DNA from: Prevotella sp.
GTDB lineage: Bacteria; Bacteroidota; Bacteroidia; Bacteroidales; Bacteroidaceae
Length of the DNA: 49,770 nucleotides
Assembly (NCBI GenBank): GCA_017476785.1
Contig: JAFUZD010000081.1
Coordinates: forward strand, 1-49,770
Direction of reading: 5' to 3'
The position numbers and the translations under genes were made by a program. Below are positions 40,391 to 41,741 of this stretch, piece by piece. Under the pieces are notes generated by a model, which saw only the letters and a program-made list of their open reading frames with translations, was not told where the DNA came from and did no database searches. Numbering within the stretch: the stretch's first letter is position 1; each line of letters starts with the position of its first letter.

Positions 40391-40500
40391 CGTGGCTTGC
40401 GAAGCAACACTCCGCGGCTTCGGGAGCGTTGCTCCGCGGCCTGCGGAGCATCGCTCCCCAGCCTCTGCAGCATTGCTCCGCAGCCTTTGAAACATTGGCG
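40391..40500. repeat. GC-rich tandem array of 22-bp units (five units), second copy
   Basis: Units begin at 40391, 40413, 40435, 40457 and 40479; the outer two are degenerate. The consensus is the same as at 21221-21330 (CGCGGCNTCGGGAGC then RTYGCTC). It lies in the 365-bp divergent gap between the glutathione peroxidase promoter and the FGE-fold gene. Apart from the two promoters and this array, I see nothing else in the gap. Confidence 0.9.
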
Positions 40501-40589: not shown

Positions 40590-41741
40590 ATGATGAAATC
40601 AATCCGAATCTGGGGGCTGTTGCTGGCACTGCTGCTGGCCGTTCCCACAAGCGTTCTGGCGCAGATGCCGCCGTGCCCCGTATGCGGCAAGAAGATGAAC
40701 CTCTGCCCCTACCACGGCAAGCATCCTGCCCCGAAGCCCAAACCGAAACCCACGGCCAAGCCCAAACCGAAGCCACAACCGAAGCCGCAGGCGCAGCAAC
40801 CGCAGGTGCAGGCGGCTTATGAGGTGACGTTCACGTGCAACGTGCCGTCGGCTACGATGTATATCGACGATGCGAATATGGGCAATCCTACGGGTTCCAA
40901 ATATGTCAAGACCGGTACGCGCCGTGTCCGTCTGACGGCCGATGGCTACGAAGACTATGAGGGCACGTTCACCGTGGGCCCCAACAGCACTGCGGCCAGT
41001 TTTACGATGACACAACGTGCGCAGCCGCCGCTTTCCGATGAGACCATCACGGTCAATGGCGTCAGTTTTGTAATGAAGGGCGTGCAGGGCGGTACGTTCC
41101 AGATGGGCTCCAACGACAGTGAAGCTGAGAGTAATGAGAAGCCTGTGCATCAGGTGACGGTATCGTCGTTCCGCATCGGCCAGACGGAGGTGACGCAGGA
41201 GCTGTGGCAGGCCGTGATGGGTACGAATCCGTCAAAGTTTAAGGGCGCGAAGCGTCCCGTGGAATGCGTAAGCTGGGAGGACTGCCAGCAGTTTATCCAG
41301 CGGCTGAACGCGAAGACGGGCAAGCAGTTCCGCCTGCCCACGGAGGCCGAATGGGAATACGCAGCCCGTGGTGGCAACCGGAGCAGCGGCAGCAAGTATG
41401 CGGGCTCGTCTTCGATAGACGCAGTGGCTTGGTATACGGTGAATAGTTATAAAAAAGGAAGCAATAGTCCCGATTATGGCACGCACGAGGTGGGTACGAA
41501 GCAGCCGAACGAGCTGGGCCTGTATGATATGTCGGGCAACGTAAATGAGTGGTGCAGCGACTGGTATGGCTCTTATAGCAGCGCATCCCAGACGAATCCT
41601 GCTGGTCCGTCTTCGGGCTCTATCCCCGTGGTCCGTGGTGGCTGTTGGGACCTCGACGCGCAGAGCTGCCGCGTGTCGGATCGGGGCAACTGTTCGCCCG
41701 GCAGCCGCGTCCGCCGCATCGGACTGCGCCTCGCCCTTTAG
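40590..41741 (+). CDS. Secreted PEGA and formylglycine-enzyme-fold protein with a DGR-like variable C-terminus
   Basis: The product has 383 residues. A signal peptide (about 1-25, cleavage after VLA) precedes a possible metal knuckle (Cys29, Cys32, Cys39, His42 in CPVCGKKMNLCPYH). Then come a Lys-Pro-rich linker (47-72), a PEGA-type beta domain (about 75-142; ATMYIDDANMG, RRVRLTADGYEDYEG) and an FGE-sulfatase domain (about 155-383; GGTFQMGSNDSEAESNEKPVHQV, QTEVTQELWQAVMG, RLPTEAEWEYAARGG, YDMSGNVNEWCSDWY). This fold is C-type-lectin-like. Residues 348-383 resemble the variable region of retroelement-diversified proteins. It is the only plus-strand gene in this stretch. A catalytic role is doubtful; surface ligand binding is more plausible. 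Confidence 0.85.
   Translation: MMKSIRIWGLLLALLLAVPTSVLAQMPPCPVCGKKMNLCPYHGKHPAPKPKPKPTAKPKPKPQPKPQAQQPQVQAAYEVTFTCNVPSATMYIDDANMGNPTGSKYVKTGTRRVRLTADGYEDYEGTFTVGPNSTAASFTMTQRAQPPLSDETITVNGVSFVMKGVQGGTFQMGSNDSEAESNEKPVHQVTVSSFRIGQTEVTQELWQAVMGTNPSKFKGAKRPVECVSWEDCQQFIQRLNAKTGKQFRLPTEAEWEYAARGGNRSSGSKYAGSSSIDAVAWYTVNSYKKGSNSPDYGTHEVGTKQPNELGLYDMSGNVNEWCSDWYGSYSSASQTNPAGPSSGSIPVVRGGCWDLDAQSCRVSDRGNCSPGSRVRRIGLRLAL
41632..41738 (+). other. Candidate DGR variable region at the 3' end of the FGE-fold gene
   Basis: The frame around RGGCWDLDAQSCRVSDR to IGLRLAL fits a template rich in AAC/AAT codons. At the expected Asn positions the codons are GAC, CTC, GAC, AGC, GAT, GGC, AAC, TGT, GGC, AGC, GTC, CGC and CGC: all keep a pyrimidine third base and differ only at positions one and two. 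The invariant codons between them lack A. No template repeat or reverse transcriptase gene is in this window. Confidence 0.5.

Follow-up and report, generated by a model that had tools for sequence, protein, structure and literature searches.

Diversity-generating retroelements (DGRs) work through a reverse transcriptase (RT) that makes error-prone copies of a template RNA, the errors arising at adenines; such a copy, steered by its 3' end, takes the place of the variable repeat in a target gene. In Treponema denticola isolates, according to the available part of the report, one RT and one template serve two to seven scattered targets alongside an HRDC accessory gene, and some isolates have targets without RT or template, which were termed likely leftovers (PMC4891356). 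DGR targets fused to Ser/Thr kinases as well as remote targets were described in cyanobacteria (PMC7517822), and trans action was argued for a Thiohalocapsa DGR (PMC10907252), both as given in the accessible portions of these papers. In short, scattered and orphan targets are already known from T. denticola, and targets with kinases from cyanobacteria.

In the present work, we analyzed a gene at 40590..41741 (+) within a 49,770-nucleotide stretch of Prevotella sp. DNA (contig JAFUZD010000081.1 of assembly GCA_017476785.1), which is called the window throughout. Our analyses suggested that the variable 3' tract of this gene was made by a DGR and that the gene is a remote or left-over target of it, with a probability of roughly 0.93. 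The sequence-only reading had proposed such a distant target, and the proposal gained strength from congeners, whose template adenines predicted the variable columns and whose cassettes carried similar FGE targets.

One of the closest known systems is that of T. denticola. Judged by sequence, the closest solved protein was TvpA (2Y3C), a DGR variable protein of T. denticola (E 4.2e-45), followed by PvdO (E 1.9e-20), and target residues 345-382 (38 aligned) matched the end of TvpA without a gap. Unlike TvpA, the Prevotella protein has a PEGA domain and a knuckle, and RT and template were not found in its own genome. Gene order differs as well. T. denticola, as far as the available text describes it, has its accessory gene flanked by template and RT; in the Prevotella congeners this gene is flanked by target and RT, and the template follows the RT. 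The cyanobacterial targets, in the portion of that paper at hand, are scattered C-type-lectin paralogues, many of them kinase-fused, as in the set described here (PMC7517822). In the same portion, however, the cyanobacterial kinase targets are mostly predicted to be cytosolic, whereas in one sister of the window gene a hydrophobic stretch separates kinase and FGE domain; the window protein itself differs from them in having a leader and no kinase. A search for literature joining diversity-generating retroelement, formylglycine and Prevotella found none within a scope that excluded most subscription papers, and we claim no priority.

The target gene and its copies

The gene encodes 383 amino acids. 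Reading of the translation alone showed a leader of the signal-peptide type (residues 1-25, 40590..40664, +) and, after it, a CPVC...CPYH knuckle (residues 29-42, 40674..40715, +), and a Lys-Pro linker was visible there too. A PEGA domain (residues 78-135, 40821..40994, +; PF08308, E 1.7e-7) and an FGE-sulfatase domain (residues 165-382, 41082..41735, +; PF03781, E 6.4e-51) were matched by profile, and the protein ends in IGLRLAL. The matches to PF03781 and TvpA predict a C-type-lectin/FGE fold at the C-terminus, where the predicted structure had pLDDT <50 across residues 315-383. Because of the leader, the PEGA domain and the fold, the protein would be secreted and surface-located and would probably bind a ligand through its variable FGE tip. 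Upstream of the gene, a 22-base imperfect tandem repeat occupies 40410-40497; at no more than two mismatches its motif occurred three times in the whole window, two of them in this array, against 0.03 expected, and it was also seen just downstream of the targets on contigs C51 (L245 8420-8436) and C42 (L246 189-205).

The variable repeat spans 126 bases at 41616..41741 (+), about 42 codons including the stop, and varies mainly at columns that are adenine in the templates of congeners. Its last 22 bases (41720..41741, +) were invariant in all six copies described below and putatively form the 3' guide for retrohoming. Leader, knuckle, linker, PEGA domain and FGE fold had all been named in the sequence-only reading and were borne out here, as was the codon pattern that it described before the terminal IGLRLAL; the 36 codons that it allotted to the variable end were too few.

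The genome is a 2.72-Mb draft in 139 contigs with a completeness of 89.07%, in which the window is contig C39. A blastn search with 41600-41741 (E<=10) gave 21 matches, namely the window, five further copies with 77-83% identity to it, and 15 short matches with E >= 0.05. The 3' tract was consequently counted six times on six contigs (C39, C36, C57, C85, C42, and C51), each copy terminating in GLRLAL and a stop, so that the protein is not the lone one it was first taken to be. The genome thereby shows a trait of the T. denticola type, several dispersed targets with a common kind of variable repeat. Full-length sisters of the window gene lie on C42 and C51, and both retain leader, knuckle and linker; together with the window gene, three targets have the PEGA-FGE layout, and the knuckle has the version CPTC...CPYH on C51, C42 and C85. 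The C85 protein possesses leader and knuckle and lacks a PEGA match, and its gene is followed by a separate Ser/Thr kinase gene. The C57 sister (L247 6503-8278, -) has 591 residues, with an N-terminal protein kinase domain (18-281), a C-terminal FGE domain and, separating them, a hydrophobic stretch around 322-341; this amounts to a receptor-kinase layout of Ser/Thr kinase, hydrophobic stretch and hypervariable FGE ectodomain. On C36, a short match that was suspected to be a template turned out to be a gene truncated by the contig end.

FGE matches numbered 10 in this genome; four of them, three located on C84 and one on C61, were not counted as copies, since blastn did not match the tract in them. 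C84 encodes a 795-residue protein with three tandem FGE domains (L035 537-2924, +), in which blastn gave no match to the variable tract. In addition, a PEGA-Sel1 protein with leader and knuckle like the window protein and without FGE is encoded on C51 (L245 14428-15708, +), about 6 kb from the target there.

Codon positions behaved differently in the tract and before it. Pairwise differences among the six copies at positions 1, 2 and 3 were 180, 165 and 38 over 615 codon comparisons of the tract, vs. 335, 232 and 667 over 2080 codon comparisons of the preceding FGE domain. Among the five copies with enough upstream sequence, the share of differences at position 3 was 0.10 in the last 42 codons; in the 170 windows of equal length that lay entirely upstream it ranged over 0.36-0.70, with a median of 0.55. 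Variable columns in the six copies amounted to 18, 18 and 7 at the three positions of 42 codons. Since pairs of copies are not mutually independent, the case rests on the template-adenine comparison, for which, as for the pairwise, column and drift counts, all six copies were used; one extra codon of the C57 copy was omitted from the column, template and drift counts to keep the columns in register.

Congener cassettes and the template adenines

Of 27 congeners, 14 had a match to PF00078, and in G009, G178 and G326 an RT followed shortly after an FGE target. Complete cassettes of these three comprised FGE target, accessory gene, RT and then template, and G393 and G228 showed the same gene order. 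The accessory gene codes for 160-165 residues, and the one that was scanned has an HRDC domain. The RT carries [LV]PIGNLTSQ and YMDD, which we take to mark the DGR type. The template, of about 134 bases, comes after the RT and overlaps the RT frame in G178. Mismatches between template and cis target fell at template adenines in 18 of 18 cases in G326, 23 of 25 in G009 and 20 of 21 in G178 (L136, L163, L175). The G326 cis target (L115 2549-2684) has lost one base of its variable repeat by comparison with the template, and this deletion puts the C-terminus into a different frame. Like the window gene, complete cassettes of congeners (L113, L114, L115; L136-L176) hold an FGE target with the same type of C-terminus, and their template adenines correspond to the columns that vary in the six copies; they differ in that their target adjoins accessory gene, RT and template, which none of the six copies does.

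The family reaches beyond these genomes. With one genome taken per species, the unmutated-template pattern was found at 41 loci, mostly titled Bacteroidales or its families and many of them from ruminants and other herbivores. An RT match to those of the congeners was present at 37 of the 41, although at L138 the match was confined to the segment that in G178 overlaps the template and did not include the RT domain. A second copy of the template occurred at 30 of the 41 loci, and over the 32 template-copy pairs listed 548 of 564 mismatches lay at template adenines and 16 at other bases. Matches to the target protein itself were detected in 192 of 200 genus genomes (E<=0.001), many of them weak; the relatives searched in this study were samples, of 200 or about 400 genomes, out of a larger genus.

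The template adenines of four congeners predicted which columns vary in the six tracts. With the G178 template, 30 of 33 adenine columns were variable vs. 13 of 93 others (Fisher p=1.4e-15); the corresponding counts were 32/38 vs. 11/88 for G009, 29/34 vs. 14/92 for G326 and 30/35 vs. 13/91 for G393, with p values over the four templates from 3.6e-13 to 1.4e-15. Taken alone, the window copy differed from the G178 template at 24 of its 33 adenines, compared with 17 of its 93 other bases. On the map given by these four templates, the tract thus varies at template adenines and is conserved elsewhere. Three changes in the window copy depart from the adenine rule (CGC to CCC, TGG to TGT, and CTC to ATC) and look like later drift. 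Taken together, the template-adenine prediction, the codon-position pattern, the congener cassettes and the TvpA match indicate that the tract was DGR-made, almost certainly by adenine-mutagenic retrohoming.

The course of events may be pictured as follows. A DGR RT at another locus would have copied an adenine-rich template with errors at the adenines, and in at least six genes dispersed over the genome the 3' end would have been exchanged for such a mutated copy, with the 22 invariant bases at 41720-41741 serving as retrohoming guide. The genes rewritten in this manner would be three of the PEGA-FGE layout, one FGE gene beside a kinase (C85), one of kinase-transmembrane-FGE layout (C57) and the truncated one (C36), and the outcome would be secreted or membrane proteins that present differing tips on one scaffold.

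Fate of the cassette

The sequence-only reading saw neither RT nor template in the window, and at the sensitivity of the searches run both were absent from the whole assembly too. PF00078 had no match in it, while 3 of 14 control genomes were matched. A profile of three RTs likewise found nothing at E<=10; its sensitivity was such that 17 of 398 congeners reached E<=1e-30 and five of these fell below 1e-100, three of them being the congeners from which the profile had been built. The accessory gene had no match in the genome at E<=0.01, against 7 of 13 genomes searched that had one, and tblastn 3' of the six copies gave chance matches only (best E 0.31), with just 337 bases available downstream on C42. 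No template was found in the genome by blastn with the tract, and a pattern for an unmutated stretch, at no more than two mismatches, matched six times, always with two mismatches, vs. 21 times in the reversed control; the search that the reading had called for, a template agreeing with the tract at non-adenine sites next to an RT gene, thus came back empty on both counts in a draft 89% complete. This outcome is one half of what the reading had named as refuting it, the other half being C-termini in closely related strains that are identical or vary only synonymously. Among 397 relatives, with at most two candidates scored per genome, nine matched at E<=1e-10 including the genome itself, and the best other reached 76% identity, so that no nearer relative with a template emerged.

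We favored the reading in which the cassette has been lost or has become idle in this lineage, which we consider reasonably probable; that it is present in the organism and missing from the draft appears the less probable of the two. The former is likely in view of drift at non-adenine bases and of decayed cassettes in congeners.

First, the cassette may have been deleted from the lineage, leaving six targets that now drift, an account that we rate a little better than even. RT, accessory gene and template were all unfound, and T. denticola isolates holding targets without RT or template, described as likely leftovers in the available text, offer a precedent (PMC4891356). At the 82 columns without an adenine in any of the four congener templates, non-majority bases numbered 3 in the window, 1 on C36, 0 on C85, 5 on C42, 2 on C51 and 2 on C57. 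Pairs of these copies differed at 2-8 non-adenine columns (mean 5.1, 15 pairs), compared with 0 in the single pair from each of two cassettes with two targets, which were scored on their own templates. The five copies of the congener G143 gave 2-6 such differences (mean 3.9, 10 pairs). As the adenine map was borrowed both for the own copies and for G143, some of the columns counted may in truth be adenines of their own templates; and because G143, with a tract position-3 share of just 0.03, still shows 3.9 per pair on the borrowed map, the contrast in drift is soft. The drift is therefore suggestive and falls short of proving cassette loss. Moreover, a draft that is 89% complete and in 139 contigs can lack a cassette of about 2 kb, which speaks against this account.

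Decayed cassettes in congeners lend this account further support. In G143 (89% complete), five targets are spread over four contigs; an RT was absent by PF00078 and by profile at E<=1e-30, a template query matched those five tracts and nothing else, and after one target only about 44 first residues of the accessory gene are left (L242 2375-2500). Its position-3 share was 0.32 with all seven genes and 0.03 for five after two clearly different paralogues were dropped. G009 has an intact cassette on its C18 and a broken one on its C2, where the accessory gene, up to about residue 32, is joined to the first 40-47 residues of the RT (L244 1841-2091). In G385, accessory residues 1-47 on its C24 stand directly before the template (L243 2832-3114), and an FGE target was absent from the 5.5 kb fetched. 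Decay in G143, G009 and G385 illustrates how a targets-only state can arise.

Second, an intact cassette may be unassembled or sit on a separately binned mobile element and rewrite the targets in trans at present; this is plausible, though we give it somewhat less than an even chance. Third positions of the tract are almost fixed (38/615) in genes that have diverged (667/2080), so that rewriting continued long after gene duplication, and the C85 copy has no non-adenine change over the 82 columns. Trans targets were inferred for T. denticola and Thiohalocapsa in the portions of those reports available (PMC4891356, PMC10907252). Against continued rewriting stands the drift in five of the six copies, and a mobile carrier was not seen: viral contigs contained neither the 3' tract nor the template pattern and a single RT, 34% identical, while no RT of at least 60% identity occurred in 148 phage records or among the 5000 plasmid records listed.

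Some results weigh against the DGR origin itself, among them the failure to find RT, accessory gene or template in the assembly. Non-adenine changes in the own copies exceed the 16 found over 32 template-copy pairs. In addition, seven multi-copy congeners showed no clear footprint when their paralogues were pooled, with tract position-3 shares (0.40 in G183, 0.36 in G182, 0.42 in G079, 0.43 in G049, 0.37 in G019, 0.39 in G165, and 0.41 in G140, that is, 0.36-0.43) vs. 0.46-0.59 upstream; such pools may combine targets served by different templates with old targets and with genes that are not targets. Genes obtained from the fetched loci were 7/8 in G143, 3/7 in G183, 8/9 in G049, 3/5 in G019 and 3/3 each in G182, G165 and G140, with seven genes in one stretch in G079. 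Third, the tract might have been shaped without any DGR, either by positive selection of the usual kind or by gene conversion between FGE paralogues, with codon use being biased, as the frequency of target-protein matches in the genus (192/200 genomes) and the assembly without RT would allow, but this is very improbable, given that neither process is expected to limit change to the template-adenine columns of other species or to leave third positions nearly fixed.

Kinase link and meaning for the genus

Kinases recur around these targets. In G178 a kinase gene lies directly upstream of the cis target, and a motif search found a kinase motif together with a hydrophobic stretch in 3 of 27 FGE frames from 29 congener loci. 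The kinase-transmembrane-FGE sister on C57 gives a hint at what the variable tips may signal to. It is conceivable, and on balance doubtful, that an unseen DGR, possibly on a mobile element, acts in trans on secreted PEGA-FGE binders and on transmembrane or neighboring Ser/Thr kinases; if so, the organism would own a repertoire of hypervariable sensors wired to kinase signaling.

Such findings demonstrated that, even where template and RT are missing, a DGR footprint can be recognized by comparing the paralogues within a single genome. Furthermore, congeners show several states, namely intact cassette, decayed cassette and targets only, so that it can be tested inside one genus how DGRs are gained and lost and what becomes of their targets.
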